Positions 51,898 through 64,000 of a stretch of DNA of 64,000 bases are shown one piece after another (the stretch's first letter is position 1; the number at the start of each line of letters is the position of its first letter). Under the pieces are notes generated by a model that searched no databases, was not told the origin of the DNA, and saw only the letters and a program-made list of their open reading frames with translations. Made by a program: the position numbers and the translations under genes. The DNA is from Deltaproteobacteria bacterium (GTDB taxonomy: Bacteria > Desulfobacterota > Binatia > UBA9968 > JAJDTQ01), in NCBI GenBank assembly GCA_026710965.1, contig JAPOQB010000272.1, positions 1 to 64,000 on the forward strand. The letters are read 5' to 3'.

Positions 51898-52963
51898 TCA
51901 GGTTCTCTCGTCCGCATCACTGAGCTCCGCCTCGATCTCCTCGATGGTCGGCATGGTGCCCTTGAGGTCGTTGGGAAGGACCTCGACCAAGCGCGTTTCC
52001 CAGTCCGCGACACCGAGGGGCTTGGCGAGGTCGCGTAGGGCGTACTCGACAACCATCCGGTCCTTGCCCTTGCACAGCAGCAGGCCGATGGTGGGCGCGT
52101 CGTCGGGGTGGCGCATCAGGTCGTCCACGGCGGAGAGGTACAGGTTCATCTGGCCGACGAAGGAGGGGCTGAACGGGACTGCCTTGAGCTCGACTACGAC
52201 GTAACGGCGGAGTTGAAGGTGGTAGAACAGCAGGTCCACGCGAAAGTCGCTGTCGCCGACCTCCAGGAGCACCTGCCGGCCGACGAAGGAGAATCCGGCA
52301 CCCATCTCCAGCAGGAACCGCTGGATGTGGTCCACGAGACCCTGTTCGAGCTCCCGTTCCGTACGCGGTTTGGCAGTGCCGAGGAAGTCGAACAGGTACG
52401 GGTCCTTGAATGCCTGCGTGGCCAGATCGGAGTCGGGCGGCGGCATTGTCCGGGGGAAGTTGGTGACGGCGCCGCCCTGGCGCTCGTACAGGCGCGCGCG
52501 GATCTGTAGCTCAAGTATCTCCCGGCTCCAGCCCTGCTCGATGGCCTTGCGGGCGTACCAGATGCGCGTCTCGGGGAGGTCCAATTTGTGCAACAGGGCC
52601 AGATTGCTGCGCCAGGGTATTTGTGCAACGGTGCGTTGCACGATTTCGCGCTCGGGCCATGCTGCGGCGAAGGCGCGCATGTACTTGAGGTTGCGGGGCG
52701 AGAATCCGCGCATGTCCGTAAACGCCTGCCGGAGGTCGTGCGATGGTCCCGGCGCCCCAGCCTTCCCGCTCTTGGCGGGCGAGAATCGCCTTGCCGATAT
52801 CCCAGTACAGCAACACCATCGCCTCGTTGGCCGCCAGCACGACACGCCCGCGCTCGGTGCGGACGCGCTCCTTGATCTCACCGAGCAGCGCAGCGTAATC
52901 AGCAGGCAACGCTGCTTTTCCCGGCGGTGCCGGGATCGACGCGCCGGTGCGCCGACGTCCCAT
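51898..52963 (-). pseudogene. DUF1016 (YhcG-type) PD-(D/E)XK nuclease, frameshifted
   Basis: A DUF1016 family protein, often found inside type I restriction loci. The N-terminal half starts at 52963 and contains YAALLGEIKERVRTERG through YWDIGKAILARQEREGWG. The frame then shifts near 52740, apparently through loss of about 11 bases, and the rest continues as HDLRQAFTDMRGFSPRNLKY to the end at 51898. The C-terminal nuclease motif DFRVDLLFYHLQLRRYVVVE with ELK is intact. The start lies 15 nt after the hsdM stop. Confidence 0.82.
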
Positions 52964-52977
52964 GGTCTTGCGCTCTT

Positions 52978-54318
52978 TCACAGCCCCAGCGCCTCGAAGT
53001 TCCGCTTGATGGTCGCCGCCAGTTGGACAGACTCCGCGTTGAGCACGTCGAGTTCCGAGTGGATGTCCCGCATCGTCTGGGCGAAGTCGAAGTTCTCGTC
53101 TTCTTCCTCCGGCGCGACACCGACGTAGCGCCCCGGTGTCAGGCTCCAATCGTTGCCGGCCAATTCGTCGTGGCCGACCAGCTTCACGAGCCCTTCGACA
53201 TCGCGCAGGGCCGCGTCCGGAAACCGCTCCTGAAGCCAGCGTGCCTGCAGCCAGAAGTAGCGCGGCGCTCTGAGATGCTCGACCGCGCCGTCGCGCGCTT
53301 CGCCGACCGCTTTGAGCGGGCTGCCGCGGCCGTTCCGGCGCCCCTCGGTCACGCGCGACAGTAAGCGGTGGAGGTGATCGGCCTGACGGATCAGGTCGCG
53401 CCCTGCTTCTGCCACGGGCTGGGCCTGGGCGGCGAACGCCGTGAGCCCGGCGTTGTCGCGGCGGGCCGAATCCCATGCGGCGCGGAGTTCGCCCGCCGCC
53501 GACTCGAAGGCGTCGAGGTCGTGGGCGAATGACTCCCGCGCGTTGTCGAACTCCGTCAGGTTCTGTGCGCGGTCGTCGAAAAGCTCGCCATCGGCACACG
53601 CCGCGGCAGCATCGGCAAGCGCGTCAGCCAGGCGGCGAACGGGCGGTGCGGCGTTGCCGGCTGCGTCGACCATGCTGTCGAGGTGCTCGGCCACGAGGGC
53701 GAGGAAGCGGTCGCCCTGGCCCCTATAGAGCCAGACGATGGCCGCCAAGTTCTTCTGCTGCTCCGGCGTGAAGTCGTAGATCTTGCGCGTTACCTTCCGG
53801 TGGACGTTGCGCGCGTCGATCATCAGCAACTTCCCCTGCCGCTCGGCGGGTTTGGCCTTGTCGAGGAACCACAGCTCGCACGGCACCGTGCGCGTGTAGA
53901 AGAATCCGGAACGGATCGCCATCATCACGTCCAGGTGTCCGGCCTCGATCAGCTTGCGGCGCATTTTCGCTTCCTCGCCGCCCGCCGACGACGCCTGCGA
54001 GGACATCACGAACCCGGCCCGGCCGCAGTCGTTTAGGTAGCTGTCGAAGTAGGAAATCCACAGGTAGTTGCCGTTGGAGACCTTGCCCTTCTTGTTCACG
54101 CCAGGCAGGGCATACGGCAGGCGCGGGTCGTTCTTCACTTTCTCCGCGTCCACCTCGTCGACGTTGAACGGTGGATTGGCCATGACGAAGTCGCACTTGC
54201 CGAACAGTTCGTGCGGATCCGGCAGGAAGTACTCGTTGCTGGCGAAGTTGGAGTTGGCCCGTAGGTTGTCCGCGCTCGACCAGAGCCGTTTCTCGATCTC
54301 GCCGATGTGTTCCAACAA
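52978..54318 (-). pseudogene. hsdM: type I restriction DNA methyltransferase, internal deletion
   Basis: The modification subunit, starting at a TTG at 54318 with AGGAG upstream. The true HsdM N-terminus is present (EIEKRLWSSADNLRANSNFA, then SNEYFLP), but at residue 33 it jumps in frame to DPHELFGKCDFVMANPPFN. The intervening 200 or so residues of the family, including the SAM-binding motif I, are missing. The catalytic NPPF motif therefore sits at residues 48-51. The rest of the C-terminal half continues normally to 52978. Without motif I methylation is not expected. Confidence 0.82.
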
Positions 54319-54763
54319 TGTGCTCCTGCTCAAGATTCCCGAGTCCGCCGATCGGCCGGTCCGAGACCGTGTCAGGCGTGATGACCGGATGGCGCGCGCG
54401 CTCGACGCAACAACCGGTAGTCCATTATGGCCCTGATCACCTGTCGCCGTCGCCCCCGAACTCGGTAGCGGTAGCATTGTTTTGGATAGGACCGAGATAT
54501 TGAGACGGTGCGAGGCAGACCCGCCACACCGACGGATGGCAAACAAGAATAAATCGCGAAAAAGATGCGTGCACCACTTGACGCGGTTTTCGGGGCGCGT
54601 ATCGGCTCACTACGGCGCGCGGCGGACCCTCCGACGCTCTGAAAACAGCTTGGCCTCCGTGGACGCGGCAGCGCCGCGCTGAGCGGCCTTCCGGGCGCTG
54701 TTTCGTCGCCTCCAAGGACTCGTTCGAGTCGTCTATTTTCAATCCCGTGATATACTTACGCAT
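54319..54763. other. gene-free stretch at accessory boundary
   Basis: About 445 bp between the hsdM start and the HNH fragment. I see only short unlikely frames, no clear promoter and no repeat beyond chance. It marks the junction between the decayed restriction locus and the run of truncated elements. Confidence 0.6.
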
Positions 54764-55220: not shown

Positions 55221-56385
55221 CTAAAGTGTCACGGCGAGGTTGCCCATGCTGCGAGCGTGTCCGGGTGCTCCTCCCCAAGCACACGCCGTCGGGCCTCAAA
55301 CACCCGCTCTTCGAGTTCCCGGGCACCAGCACGGTCGCCATGCGCCCTGAGCATCGCGGCGAGGTTGCCCATGCTCGTGAGTGTATCCGGGTGCTCCTCC
55401 CCAAGCACACGCCGTCGGGTCTCCAACACCCGCTCCTTGAGTTCCCGCGCGCCGACGTGGTCGCTTTGGTCACCGAGCGTCACCGCGAGGTTGCTCATGC
55501 TCGTGAGCGTGTCCGGGTGCTCCTCCCCAAGCACACGCCGTCGTACCTCCAACGCCCGCTCCTTGAGTTCCCGGGCCCCAGCATGGTCGCCCTGCGCCAA
55601 GAGGGCCACCGCGAGGTTGTTCATGCTCGTGAGCGTGTCCGGGTGCTCCTCCCCAAGCACACGCCGAACAGTCTCCAACACCCGCTCCTGGAGTTCCCGC
55701 GCGCCGGCATGGTCGCCCTGCGCCAAAAGCACCATAGCGAAGTTGCTCGTGCTCGTGAGAGTGTCCGGGTGCTCCTCCCCAAGCACACGCCGTCGGGCCT
55801 CCAACGCGCGCTCCGCGAGTTCCCGTGCATCCTTATGATTTCCCTTCTGACTCAGAAAGATAGCCACGCGACTCAGCAACCGAGCAAACTCGTAAGTATC
55901 GATATGGTAAGCCTCATGGACCCGACCAAGTTGAGTAACGTGCTCTACTAGAGCCTCGTAACGCGGCCAGTCATGTGGGCAATAGGGGTCATCCGGACAA
56001 ACATTATCAAGCATCCTATAGAAAGCCATGCGGTCTTCAGCCGCTGCAATTCGTGTGCGTACTACCTGTTGAGTCAAGCGGTGAAATAACAACGCATGTC
56101 CGCCATCATACGACCTAATCAGAATGCGCTTGGCCAATCCATAGCGACGTAATTCTCCCACGACATGGTTCCACTTCAAGCCGTCGCCCACCGTCTCCAT
56201 AAACATACTCGGAAGCTGGTTACCAGCTTCGCGAAACATCCATTCCGGTATCGGTTCCGAAGCCGCAAATGCACAAATGCGCAGCACTAACCGGGATCGC
56301 TCAGAGACCTTATCGAATGCCAGCGACAATGTCATAGCCAACGAAGGTTCGTAGTCAGCCTTCCGACCAACGATACGAGAGGACG
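55221..56385 (-). pseudogene. STAND/NB-ARC-type protein with TPR repeats, 5'-truncated
   Basis: The visible protein starts inside the winged-helix part that follows an NB-ARC-type ATPase (MTLSLAFDKVSERSRLVLRI) and continues into five to six tetratricopeptide repeats of 42 residues containing RRVLGEEHPDTLTSM and NNLAVALLAQGDHAGARELK. The ATPase part itself is missing: the text meets IS256-type sequence at about 56385. Near 55250 a one-base shift separates the last repeat from its natural ending. Proteins of this architecture are signal-sensing or defence-related ATPases; this copy is broken at both ends. Confidence 0.75.
55229..55850 (-). repeat. 126-bp tandem repeats coding TPR units
   Basis: Five near-identical 126-bp units (about 55256, 55382, 55508, 55634 and 55760 onward), each carrying GTGCTCCTCCCCAAGCACAC at the same place. 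They encode 42-residue TPR units. The high DNA identity between units shows recent amplification. Confidence 0.88.
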
Positions 56386-56390
56386 CAACC

Positions 56391-57640
56391 AGGAATGGAT
56401 GCAGCAGATGCTGGTCGACGAGGTGACCGAATTCCTGGGGCGCGCGAAGCATCAGCCCCGCGTGGTGGACAAGCAGGGATTCCTACGCTCATATCTGCCT
56501 ATAGGCGCTCCCCATCACGTGATCATAACTTCGCCGTGGTCACCTCCTGGCGCACAAAATCAATGCTTTGTTTGCGCCCTTGGCCTGCTCCTTGAGTTGT
56601 GAAAGGATCGGACCAGCTTGCGTATCGGAGCGGCTACGGTAAGCCGAGGCGGCTGACGATGAGTAGCGGGTGCGCGATGTGGATGAACGGTTCGCGAACC
56701 GATTGCTGCCGCTGTTCACGCGCCGCACCATGAAGTGCAAGATCTGCTGCCGGATCTGTATCTGCACGGGCTGGCGAGCGGTGACTTCGAGCTGGCGCTG
56801 AGCGGGCTGCTGGGCGATCAGGCAGCGCTGTCGGCAAGCACGGTGGCGCGGGTGAAGGAATGCTGGCAGGCAGAGTACAGCGAGTGGAAACAGGGCGGGA
56901 TCGAGGACGAGATCGTGTACCTGTGGATGGACGGCGTGTACCTGAAAGCGGGGCTGGAGAAGGAGAAGGCGGCGTTGCTGGTGGCCATCGGAGTGAACGC
57001 GGACGGTCACAAGGTGGTGCTGGCGGTGAGCAGCGGGTACCGGGAGTCGACGGCGTCGTGGAGCGGGCTAGCTGAGAGCTGAGGGCACGGGGGGATGAAT
57101 GAACCGCGTCTGGTGGTCGGGGACGGCAACCTGGGGCTGTGGAGCGCGTTGCGCAACGTGTTCCCGGGAGCCGCGGAGCAGCGCTGCGGGAATCATCGAG
57201 TGGTGAACGTGTTGACCCAGGTGCCCAAGCAGCGCCAGGGCGAAGCGCGCGAGCAGCTGACCAAGATTCCGTATCAGCGAAGCGAACCGCAGGCACGACA
57301 GAGAAGCGAGTGTTTCAGAACTGGTGTGTTGGCCACGGCTATGAGCGGGCCGCCGAGCTGATCGACGAGAACTGGGAGCAGATGGTGACGTTCTACCAGT
57401 TTCCGCGTGGCCACTGGCGGCACCTGCGAACCACCAACGTGGTGGAGTCGCCGTTCGCGGCGTTGCGGCTGCGCACGGACGCGGCGAAACGATTCAAGAA
57501 GGTCGCCAACGCGACCGCCGTGGTATGGAAGATGTTGTTGGTCGCCGAACGCAAGTTCCGGCGCAGCAATTCGCCCGAGCTACTGCCGGCCGTGGCCGCT
57601 GGGCAGCAGTATCACGACGGCCTACCGATCAGAGGAGGCC
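56391..57640 (+). mobile_element. IS256-family transposase remnant
   Basis: Broken transposase of the Mutator-like IS256 family. Pieces in order: EWMQQMLVDEVTEFLGRAKH, an unrelated stretch of about 120 bp (56500-56620), YRSGYGKPRRLTM, then DLLPDLYLHGLASGDFELAL through GYRESTASW, PRLVVGDGNLGLWSALRNVF, and finally GHWRHLRTTNVVESPFAALR with the C-terminus near 57600. The frame shifts several times between the pieces, so it is inactive. Terminal inverted repeats were not recognisable. Its left part cuts off the TPR gene. Confidence 0.8.
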
Positions 57641-58042
57641 AACACCAAGAGACGCCGCCTGATCTGTTTACACACCTCTTGACGGAACCCCTCCAGGTGG
57701 GGCTTACGCCACAAGGGAAATCGAACTTCATGTTGCGGCCCGCGTGCTTGCTCCCCGCTTTTCGCGGCTCTTTCCGCCTCGCAGGCTTTCGACACCCCGC
57801 TCTCGGGCACAGGGGTTTCCACCTGTCACCTGGGGCCTGCTACCCGGTGCTCCGACGCTTACCGGGACGGGACGACCTATCACCCGTTTGAGTCATGCAG
57901 CGTGACATAGTCATCTGTCACCCTTCCGGGCTGCCAATCGCTGCATCGCCATACCACGGGTTGACTAGATGCGGTCTGGAACGTAGAATCCGACTTGTCC
58001 TGCTCATCGGTGCTGAATCATTCTGTTCTGGGGAGTTGACAC
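57641..58042. other. unassigned stretch between IS256 remnant and alpA
   Basis: About 400 bp with an open plus-strand frame reading RPACLLPAFRGSFRLAGFRH and SPGACYPVLRRLPGRDD. Its pattern resembles short frames that recur at repeat or mobile-element ends in other bacteria, but I cannot name the element. No tRNA, promoter or inverted repeat is evident. Confidence 0.4.
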
Positions 58043-60995: not shown

Positions 60996-62093
60996 CTACG
61001 TGTCTTGAACAGCGACCAACGCCGCGTTAGTCTCATCAAGCTCGGCATTGAGCTCCTCCAGACGCGCACGAAGCACAGATCGGTCTGCGGATGGCTTCGG
61101 TAATTCGCCCCGCCTTGGCGCGCCTGAGAGTGTCGAGATAATGATGTCCCGCTCCGTCTCGAGATCGGAGATACGCGTTCGAAGCGCCCTGGCCTCCGCT
61201 GCTCCGTAGATGCGCCGGCGGGCTTGCTCGTCCTCGCGCAGGCTCTTCTCTATTGCGTCGATACCGGCTCTAGTTTCGGGATGTTGGTCTGCCGCGACCC
61301 TCAGAAACTGGGCGAGTTGGTAGATGTGGAACGACTGTCCGGAGACTTCCCTGAACTCCTCGACAAGCTCTGGCCGTGCGCCTAGCCTCTTACCCCGATA
61401 GATCCACCACCAATCTTCCTTGGCGTCGTCGGAAATGAAGACGATGGGGCGCTTGTCAGCCTTGGCCTTCGCTAACATATCCTTCCAAATGATCAAATCG
61501 CCGAACTTGGCGTGCGGTCCGGCGTCCTTCTTGGTATCCATGTATCCTGGCGGGATCTTGTAGGCGTAGCGCTCCTCGCCTTCCTTCCTCAGCGCGTTGA
61601 GCCGCTCAGCGGGCCACTTCGCGCCAACGCGACCCTCAAGGAGGTCCGAGAGGCGTTCGACTGCGTTGGCGATCGCGTCCGCCGGATGACTAGCCTTATC
61701 AGCCTGCAGTCGGGCTCGAAAGTCCGTCACGAACCTGTCGAGAGCAGCCAGTTCCCGTTCCACGTCAATAACAGGATGGGCGCGGAGCTGGCGTAATCGC
61801 ATCCGCGCTTGGTCGAGCGCGTCCGTGCACTCTTTGACGACTTGGTCGTACGCGTCCCGCGCGCCGAACTCGACGTCCAGTCGGTTGCGATGGAATTCAA
61901 GGCCAACTTGATAGGGAATCCAAATGGAGTCCCTAAAGAGCTCAAAGAAACATAGTAGCTGTTCACGTATAATTTCGGGATGGCGGAGACAGTGGAGCAA
62001 AATATTGGCGTCCGGAACGAAAATGGCGTCGTTCCACATCGCCGAAAGCTGTTCGGGCTTCCACCTGTACCATCCAATGAATTGTTGTCTCAT
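60996..62093 (-). CDS. PIN-like (DUF4935) nuclease with coiled-coil tail
   Basis: A 365-residue protein with a PIN-like fold: the first acidic residue lies in IFVPDANILLHCLR (D28), further ones in FGDLIIWKDML and IVFISDDAKEDWWWIYRG. This long form belongs to the DUF4935/PIN_8 group, putative RNases found in defence neighbourhoods. The C-terminal 100 residues are heptad-like and charged (EKSLREDEQARRRIYGAAEA, then ERDIIISTLSG and RARLEELNAELDETNAAL), a predicted coiled coil. The ATG at 62093 lies 7 nt after the previous stop; an in-frame GTG at 62117 would overlap. Third gene of the helicase operon. Confidence 0.82.
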   Translation of the reverse strand: MRQQFIGWYRWKPEQLSAMWNDAIFVPDANILLHCLRHPEIIREQLLCFFELFRDSIWIPYQVGLEFHRNRLDVEFGARDAYDQVVKECTDALDQARMRLRQLRAHPVIDVERELAALDRFVTDFRARLQADKASHPADAIANAVERLSDLLEGRVGAKWPAERLNALRKEGEERYAYKIPPGYMDTKKDAGPHAKFGDLIIWKDMLAKAKADKRPIVFISDDAKEDWWWIYRGKRLGARPELVEEFREVSGQSFHIYQLAQFLRVAADQHPETRAGIDAIEKSLREDEQARRRIYGAAEARALRTRISDLETERDIIISTLSGAPRRGELPKPSADRSVLRARLEELNAELDETNAALVAVQDT

Positions 62094-62100
62094 CGCAACG

Positions 62101-62628
62101 CTATTCGATCCAGACAAGTCTTTGGATTCCGAGGCGCTCGGCAGCGTTCCGGATGAGCTCGCGTTGATGCGCCTCGGCGGTCCTCCCCGACTCGATCAGC
62201 ACCGTGCCGAATGCTTGAGCGTTGGGGTGCTGGTGTGCTCGTTCGAATACGGCCATGAGTATCGATTTCCAGTCGCGACTGTTCCCCCAGCAGACAATCC
62301 TACCGTCCAGAAGCCGCCGACCATGCGGCTTGATATAACTTGCAGACGTTTGGCCTGTGTCGGGTATCGACAGCGAGCGCCAGACGTCGCTCTCATGAAG
62401 TGATAGCCGCGATCTTTCGTACGGCTTAACAAGGGAGTCCTTGATGTACACCCGCACCTTTCTAGGGTCCATGAAGTGGGCGAGACGGCCGCCGATTTCT
62501 GGATCCCGCGTCCAGAGCTCGTAGTGCTTAGCCCGTTCGACGTCAGGCAGCTTCGACCATCCGAGAGAATCTGCTTTGTTCCACAACCAGGCATTTACTT
62601 CGTCACGAATGTTGTCGGGAACCATCAT
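62101..62628 (-). CDS. 175-residue protein of unknown family in helicase operon
   Basis: I do not recognise this protein. It is mostly alpha/beta with no membrane segment or signal peptide. Conserved-looking stretches are DEVNAWLWNKADSLGWSKLP, HFMDPRKVRVYIKDSLVKPY, YIKPHGRRLLDGRIVCWGNS and a C-terminal AERLGIQRLVWIE. The ATG overlaps the helicase stop (ATGA), so it is translated with the helicase, and the PIN-like gene follows within 7 nt. It is probably a partner of the two. A nuclease or adaptor role is possible, but no catalytic motif is certain. Confidence 0.78.
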   Translation of the reverse strand: MMVPDNIRDEVNAWLWNKADSLGWSKLPDVERAKHYELWTRDPEIGGRLAHFMDPRKVRVYIKDSLVKPYERSRLSLHESDVWRSLSIPDTGQTSASYIKPHGRRLLDGRIVCWGNSRDWKSILMAVFERAHQHPNAQAFGTVLIESGRTAEAHQRELIRNAAERLGIQRLVWIE

Positions 62629-64000
62629 TGGACTGCGCCTCTGTTGTGGGGCATCGGGAAATCGAACTCAGGAAGTTCGAGCTGGGGGTCTCCTTCGCGG
62701 GTGAACAGATCGGCCTGGTCCCGCAACCAATCGAGCATAAAGCTACCGGCACCCTCGTCTCGGAAACCTACTACACCGGGTAGCCGGAGCCTCTCGATGT
62801 TACCACGAGAAGCCGTTTCAAGCTGGATGACCTCCGCGACGCGGCGAAGGTCACTCACAAAGTCCAGAACAACCACCTTGTCCTTGTTGGGAGCCACGCG
62901 GAGGCCTCGGCCGAGCTGCTGGACGAAGATCCGACGACTATGTGTGACCCGCATGAACACGATCATATCTACGTCGGGGACGTCGACGCCCTCATTGAAC
63001 AAGTCCCGAGTGGTTACGATATCCAAACACCCCTTTCGGAAGGAGGCCATCGTTTGATCGCGTTCTCGCGCATCCATGTCGCTGGTGATCGACTCGGCCC
63101 GGAAACCGAAGAGCCTCAGCGTACCGGCGAAGCTCTTCGCATGCGCAATGGACGAACAGAAGGCGATAGCGGCGCGCCGCTTGTCTCTGTCGAAGGCGTC
63201 TCGAACCGACCTCGCGGCCTCCTCGTCGCGAGTTGGAAGCAGAAGCCGTCTGTTCAATTGGGAGATAGAGTAGCTGTAGCGGGACCGGGATCTAACGAAT
63301 TCCCAATCTATGTTATCGGCGAGCAGGCGATAGTCTGCCTCGCAAAGAAAGCCACGCTGGAGCCCTTCCGCAATACCAATCTTGATCACCGGCGGGCCCA
63401 GGAGATGGTCGATGTCGTACCGGTCTCCGCGCCATGGGGTCGCTGTGACCCCGCCGATCATCGCGCCGGACATGTGCTCGGTGACACGTTTGACCGTCTC
63501 CGAGCCTACGTGGTGTGCCTCGTCGATGAAGACCGCACCAAATTGAGGAATCTCGTCGATGCGGGAAGCCGCGCTTTGTACCGTGGCGAACGTAATACCG
63601 TCCCAATACGTTGGCGACTCGCCGCCAATCAACCGATGAGTTGATATCCACTTGGGAATCTGGTCCCAGAACGCACGGTGGAGTTGGTCGACGAGTTCCC
63701 TCGTACCGGCGAGCACAAGTGCACGACCGTGGGGGACGGCTTCGTCGCGGAACATCTGGGCGAGTGATTCCGCGAGGACGACAGTCTTGCCGAGGCCCGT
63801 GGCAAGGACGACTTGGCCGCGGCCCGTCTCACGGAGCGCGGCAACGAAGTTGGCGACGGACTCCTCCTGGTAGTCCCTGAGCTGGCGGCGCGACGGCGCG
63901 TACTCGGGACTGCGCGTAGCGATAGCCAACAGCGTTGCGGGTTGCAGCGTCTCGATTTCGATTCCCAGAGCACGCCAGCGCTTGATCGCGTCTCGAGTGC
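62625..64000 (-). CDS. SF2 DEAD/DEAH-type helicase, N-terminus beyond window
   Basis: The visible 457 residues run in frame to the window edge. Motifs in order: QLRDYQEESVANFV, Walker A ATGLGKTVVLAE, DEAH in VFIDEAHHVGSE, motif III TATPWRG, the helicase C-terminal domain with IVTTRDLFNEGVDVPDVDM, and motif VI QQLGRGLRV. This is the type III restriction/SSL2-like helicase pattern. The edge text (RDAIKRWRALGIEIETLQ) continues without a plausible start, so an extra N-terminal domain, perhaps a nuclease, lies outside. First visible gene of the three-gene operon. Confidence 0.9.
   Translation of the reverse strand, partial: TRDAIKRWRALGIEIETLQPATLLAIATRSPEYAPSRRQLRDYQEESVANFVAALRETGRGQVVLATGLGKTVVLAESLAQMFRDEAVPHGRALVLAGTRELVDQLHRAFWDQIPKWISTHRLIGGESPTYWDGITFATVQSAASRIDEIPQFGAVFIDEAHHVGSETVKRVTEHMSGAMIGGVTATPWRGDRYDIDHLLGPPVIKIGIAEGLQRGFLCEADYRLLADNIDWEFVRSRSRYSYSISQLNRRLLLPTRDEEAARSVRDAFDRDKRRAAIAFCSSIAHAKSFAGTLRLFGFRAESITSDMDARERDQTMASFRKGCLDIVTTRDLFNEGVDVPDVDMIVFMRVTHSRRIFVQQLGRGLRVAPNKDKVVVLDFVSDLRRVAEVIQLETASRGNIERLRLPGVVGFRDEGAGSFMLDWLRDQADLFTREGDPQLELPEFDFPMPHNRGAVQ

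Follow-up and report, generated by a model that had tools for sequence, protein, structure and literature searches.

The helicase, 175-residue protein and PIN-like nuclease encoded at the end of the window (the whole 64,000-nucleotide stretch analysed here) probably belong to an ATP-dependent restriction-modification (R-M) operon of the MORC type and make up its distal half, a judgement that extends to the mechanism outlined below. A sequence-only reading of the window had presented them as a three-gene operon; that limit merely reflects where the window ends. The window covers positions 1-64000 of a contig of 82,643 bases, which runs 18.6 kb past it. When the contig sequence was read past position 64000, same-strand genes were seen to go on upstream of the helicase, extending the operon by at least three genes. 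Judged by its predicted proteins, the locus is a six-gene example of the MORC/paraMORC kind of R-M neighbourhood described in 2008, not an orphan three-gene system. Its features are as follows:

60996..62093, minus strand: PIN_8, a DUF4935-type PIN-like protein of 365 aa (Pfam PF18476, 6.5e-53)
62101..62628, minus strand: MID, the 175-residue protein, of no known family, the invariant neighbour of the helicase
62625..64000, minus strand: the C-terminal 458 codons of the Mrr-SF2 helicase that lie in the window (ResIII and Helicase_C)
contig position 64304, minus strand: start of the whole Mrr-SF2 helicase gene (559 aa), with Mrr_cat at the N-terminus
contig 64301-66610, minus strand: GHKL/MORC-like ATPase of 769 aa (HATPase_c_3, 1.1e-10)
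contig 66611-66907, between the methyltransferase and GHKL genes: frameshifted remnant of an Eco29kI-type restriction gene
contig 66908-68119 (or 68140), minus strand: C5 methyltransferase (DNA_methylase, 1.2e-60)
contig 68116-68562, minus strand: Vsr (Vsr, 2.8e-26)

The earlier description of three tightly linked minus-strand genes, ending in a DUF4935-type PIN-like protein and beginning with a helicase whose N-terminus lay beyond the window, was accurate. The helicase stop codon ends at 62625 and the MID ATG lies at 62628, giving a 4-nt ATGA overlap. The MID stop ends at 62101, which leaves a 7-nt gap if PIN_8 starts at ATG 62093; most PIN_8 homologues align from this ATG and not from the upstream TTG at 62117. 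ATGA overlaps also join GHKL to the helicase and, provided that the methyltransferase starts at 68119, Vsr to the methyltransferase. None of the six remaining genes is truncated, and their motifs are intact. Relative to the BD2-11 homologue, L009, dN/dS is 0.16 for PIN_8, 0.14 for MID and 0.07 for the helicase; these low values, and the conservation of the genes in unrelated genomes, lead us to consider them real and under purifying selection. In L009 itself the GHKL gene has an in-frame stop (around position 2486), with the frame conserved beyond it. Over 20.5 kb the sequence is matched at 100% identity by the public contig MPNH01000001.1 (Spirochaetaceae bacterium bin103), which points to the same organism, or a nearly identical one, as the origin of the window.

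A scan with MID yielded 15 loci from genome contigs and 4 from viral contigs, and plasmid searches added loci from Ruegeria, Pseudosulfitobacter, Deinococcus and Rhodococcus; collapsing near-identical loci by hand left 21 non-redundant ones. In this set, where most loci were found via MID and some gene absences are contig ends, the helicase lies directly before MID every time (21/21), with GHKL in 20, the C5 methyltransferase in 20, Vsr in 14, an Eco29kI-type restriction enzyme in 12 and PIN_8 in 11. One locus, L025, has a fragmentary helicase and is missing GHKL. The conserved gene order spans Alphaproteobacteria, Burkholderiaceae, Deinococcus and Rhodococcus. A GHKL relative was also found on its own, on a Streptomyces plasmid.

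The sequence-only reading placed the operon beside a decayed restriction locus and mobile debris, and defence genes do lie on both sides of it:

contig 69643-74479, same strand, about 1 kb upstream: type II CBASS operon, complete-looking (CD-NTase, Cap2 E1/E2, Cap3 JAB, HNH-SAVED effector)
window 56735-57891, plus strand: Mutator-family transposase, broken into two frames
window 55229-56452, minus strand: tetratricopeptide-repeat protein with a C-terminal run of near-identical 42-residue (126-bp) repeats
window 51898-54546, minus strand: truncated type I HsdM-like gene (N6_Mtase minus its N-terminal part) and a DUF1016/YhcG-type PDDEXK nuclease, the decayed restriction locus of the sequence-only reading

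On the Deinococcus plasmid pDrdI (L007) a different type II CBASS adjoins the homologous locus. A functional link between the operon and CBASS was considered and rejected: the CBASS operons of the window contig and pDrdI are only distantly related, and we therefore read the adjacency as shared residence in defence islands.

Both ATPases have features of the MORC type. The GHKL protein of the window locus has intact ATP-binding motifs (ELIDN, DNGPGM, GLFGMGFN), an S5-type region and the MORC motif GhXhhpXXRhl, which its GIDFIRNGRKI matches at 10 of 11 positions; the match is exact in L007 and L018. Against solved structures, the GHKL profile found MORC3 (4.4e-7) and MORC4 (1.8e-4) nearest, with gyrase B far behind (0.5) and MutL not among the PDB matches listed. 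The helicase combines ResIII and Helicase_C with an N-terminal Mrr_cat domain (PF04471, 1.8e-10). Its closest PDB relatives are 7clg, RadD, XPB/RAD25 and a type I R subunit, making it a Rad25-like SF2 helicase with a restriction-endonuclease (RE)-fold nuclease inside a GHKL operon; the best PADLOC model for it, a type IV enzyme, matches the motor only. In the window copy, as in almost every homologue, the GHKL ATP-binding motifs, the Mrr D-QxK residues and the helicase motifs are intact.

From gene content, order, conservation, motifs and the enzyme remnant, we infer a mechanism of the following kind. The C5 methyltransferase would mark the host's own sites, and Vsr, as a mismatch nickase, would repair the T:G mismatches left when 5-methylcytosine is deaminated. 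Unmarked foreign DNA would be clamped or looped by a dimer of the MORC-like GHKL ATPase working with the SF2 translocase, whose Mrr domain would cut. MID may be an indispensable subunit, probably without catalytic activity, that links the ATPase to the motor or assists in reading DNA, and PIN_8 may be an auxiliary second nuclease in one clade; both roles are guessed from the gene context. A difficulty is that Mrr domains are frequently modification-dependent: this would be hard to reconcile with a methyltransferase encoded in the same operon, unless cutting is triggered by something other than its mark.

The window locus has lost the enzyme that might have been expected to cut. In sister loci, an Eco29kI-type enzyme (RE_Eco29kI, PF09517) is encoded between the methyltransferase and GHKL; the Ruegeria sp. 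YS9 version of the operon retains its GIY-YIG enzyme. The window locus lacks an intact RE_Eco29kI gene and has at this point a 297-nt gap with two collinear matches to the enzyme, joined by a frameshift. The gap was scored together with 300-base pieces taken from both strands of the contig, 1,099 segments in all; first to third place, at 45-47 bits, went to the gap and the two pieces that overlap it, the next segment reaching 32.7. No convincing Eco29kI remnant was found in the sister locus L009. Because the Eco29kI-type enzyme is gone, any cutting at the window locus must come from the Mrr-helicase, from PIN_8 or from both; on our best reading these are the remaining predicted nucleases, besides Vsr as a mismatch nickase.

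With its type II enzyme gone, the window copy may not restrict at all. The rival that survives best takes this further: cutting was really done by the Eco29kI-type enzyme, what is left at the window locus is a relic unable to restrict, and the other genes persist as modification or accessory genes heading for decay. The remnant itself and the decayed neighbours (truncated HsdM, transposase fragments) are consistent with such a history, as is the failure to find an intact Eco29kI-family gene elsewhere in the draft genome, a weak negative in that control genomes gave nothing either. We nevertheless consider it unlikely. As noted, the six genes left are complete and keep their motifs, 7 other non-redundant loci likewise lack an Eco29kI-type gene in the stretch examined, and the dN/dS of the three window genes against L009 is low, though a large share of that divergence may be older than the loss.

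Vsr is a protein of the repair type, as are GHKL ATPases, and RadD is a close relative of the helicase. The operon could on these grounds be a methylation-linked DNA repair module, in which Vsr, a MORC-like (MutL-like) ATPase and the helicase act on mismatches or damage at methylated sites; such recruitment is discussed, for versions that are not R-M systems, by Iyer et al. (PMC2292703). The distribution of the operon makes this improbable. It is rare and patchy (1/292 relatives, this being the window genome itself; 3/385 and 1/369 genomes in reverse searches with GHKL, seed genomes counted and MID adjoining each), homologous loci reside on plasmids and viral contigs, and the genes are linked to Eco29kI-type restriction enzymes and to CBASS.

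MID belongs to no known family. The sequence-only reading could not place it, and neither could we: it has no match in Pfam, PADLOC or NCBIfam and no credible sequence relative in the PDB, and the idea of a known domain was dropped. Its AlphaFold model (pLDDT 93) has five helices in the N-terminal half, followed by a beta-beta-beta-alpha-beta-alpha-beta C-terminal domain. Foldseek gave no confident fold match for this model, the matches being weak (TM about 0.3-0.4). Some were to restriction-endonuclease-like folds (4zqu CdiA-CT at E 0.046, with EcoT38I, FANCM-FAAP24 and RPB5 weaker) and others to viral models of the KilA-N type (viral matches reached E 0.0026 at best). The former are at most a hint of a restriction-endonuclease-like fold, and no PD-(D/E)xK catalytic residues are apparent in the MID alignment. 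We propose that MID is a structural or DNA-reading subunit. A point against the operon model outlined above is a GHKL-helicase pair without recognisable MID, found in helicase searches on a viral contig (L033 5513-9629), where the next gene encodes a different protein, of about 180 aa. It is possible, and we put this forward only tentatively, that MID founds a new family and is an essential subunit, without catalytic activity, of a restriction complex formed by a MORC ATPase and an Mrr translocase, a complex that can restrict without a classical type II enzyme and takes interchangeable accessories, PIN_8 in one clade and a divergent protein in others.

The accessories are the variable part of the operon. 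PIN_8 directly follows MID in 11 of the 21 non-redundant loci and is missing from the other 10. The three-gene order of the window is that of these 11 loci, and in the helicase tree all of them fall in one clade (100/97). In PIN_8 (model pLDDT 81) the PIN domain contains a large helical insertion and is followed by a coiled-coil tail, and the acidic PIN residues are conserved in the alignment; Foldseek returned coiled-coil matches only, and a profile search of the PDB turned up no relative. That PIN_8 is used is indicated by its occurrence in the whole clade and by the dN/dS given above. PIN_8 relatives are common outside the operon, so that it looks like a recruited accessory. On the Psychrobacter plasmid pA48P2 (4.2 kb; L048 1610-2857), PIN_8 is one of four genes and adjoins replication and mobilisation genes, which suggests that it can also act alone. 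In 7 other loci the gene next to GHKL belongs to a family of no known relationship, DIV265, never found together with PIN_8; three members scanned had no Pfam match. Members of about 220-265 aa, divergently transcribed, are encoded at:

L019 5107-5772
L022 5005-5802
L023 3151-3870
L044 6376-7092
L045 4355-5248

A further rival, in which the helicase, MID and PIN_8 are an antiphage system of their own that merely lies beside an R-M locus, is very improbable: the three are tightly coupled in the window and in the other PIN_8 loci, yet no locus was found with all three that lacked GHKL, which lies upstream in all PIN_8 loci and overlaps the helicase by ATGA in the window locus, and PIN_8 is absent from nearly half of the MID loci and occurs alone elsewhere. 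The suggestion of an antiphage-type operon of helicase, nuclease and small partner is upheld in that the genes are conserved and look like a DNA-targeting defence; as a self-contained trio, with no described relative, it finds no support.

The interest of the MORC-type operon lies in an always-present partner with no known fold and in the loss of the usual cutting enzyme. It has been proposed that the MORC chromatin proteins of eukaryotes descend from bacterial MORC-like ATPases, and in the literature searched we found no direct biochemical test, in restriction systems, of the DNA looping proposed in 2008. A compact, conserved operon that has a small invariant partner and exists in copies with and without the conventional enzyme would make this proposal testable by gene removal.

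Several known systems resemble the operon in part. Classical type II systems are not known to include a GHKL ATPase, a helicase or MID; the sister loci have RE_Eco29kI, the enzyme of Eco29kI-type (GIY-YIG) type II R-M, beside the same methyltransferase, where the window locus has its remnant. The sequence-only reading could match the trio to neither Hachiman nor type III restriction, and the domains fit neither. For Hachiman (HamA/HamB), no model was among the PADLOC matches listed for the three proteins, MID and PIN_8 having no PADLOC match at all; in contrast to type III (Mod/Res), with its Mod-type adenine methyltransferase that has target recognition and its C-terminal nuclease in Res, the methyltransferase here is of the C5 type and the nuclease domain is an N-terminal Mrr. 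Shedu, in which GHKL is fused to a DUF4263 nuclease, was also rejected, the GHKL protein having no nuclease domain in Pfam. The Shedu protein VcSduA (PMC12137116), with a GHKL (paraMORC3) domain thought to control its nuclease, protects against phage and likewise pairs a GHKL ATPase with a PD-(D/E)XK-type nuclease, which makes it a functional precedent, but it is a single protein with no helicase or methyltransferase. A second precedent is CglI and NgoAVII (PMC4267653), which cleave only when a helicase-like protein, separate from the nuclease, hydrolyses ATP. They share with our locus a C5 methyltransferase and restriction machinery dependent on a separate SF2 helicase-like ATPase; they differ in having a PLD-B3 nuclease, a helicase that bears a Z1 domain instead of a fused nuclease, and, as described, three genes with no GHKL ATPase. 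As described in the text that cites them (PMC9523054), mzaABCDE and related cytosine-methyltransferase systems also tie a GHKL/MORC-type protein to restriction-type genes, and the related systems in that text include an AIPR-family abortive-infection protein not seen here. No named system with this exact layout was found in the literature searched, which is weak evidence because many subscription papers and preprints lie outside its coverage.

The closest relative, which the sequence-only reading had not recognised, is the class described by Iyer, Abhiman and Aravind 2008 (PMC2292703): R-M neighbourhoods in which MORC/paraMORC GHKL ATPases occur together with SF2 helicases, cytosine methylases and Vsr. 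In one class the helicases are Rad25-like and fused to RE-fold nucleases. Predicted at that time and known since, this kind of system is biochemically little studied. The invariant MID-like partner, PIN_8 and the link to Eco29kI are features of our loci that go unmentioned for that class in the part of the paper's text available. What the window locus and the 2008 class have in common, to the extent covered by that text, is a GHKL ATPase with the MORC motif, a Rad25-like SF2 helicase with an N-terminal RE fold (here Mrr), a C5 methyltransferase, Vsr and a sporadic distribution on mobile DNA.
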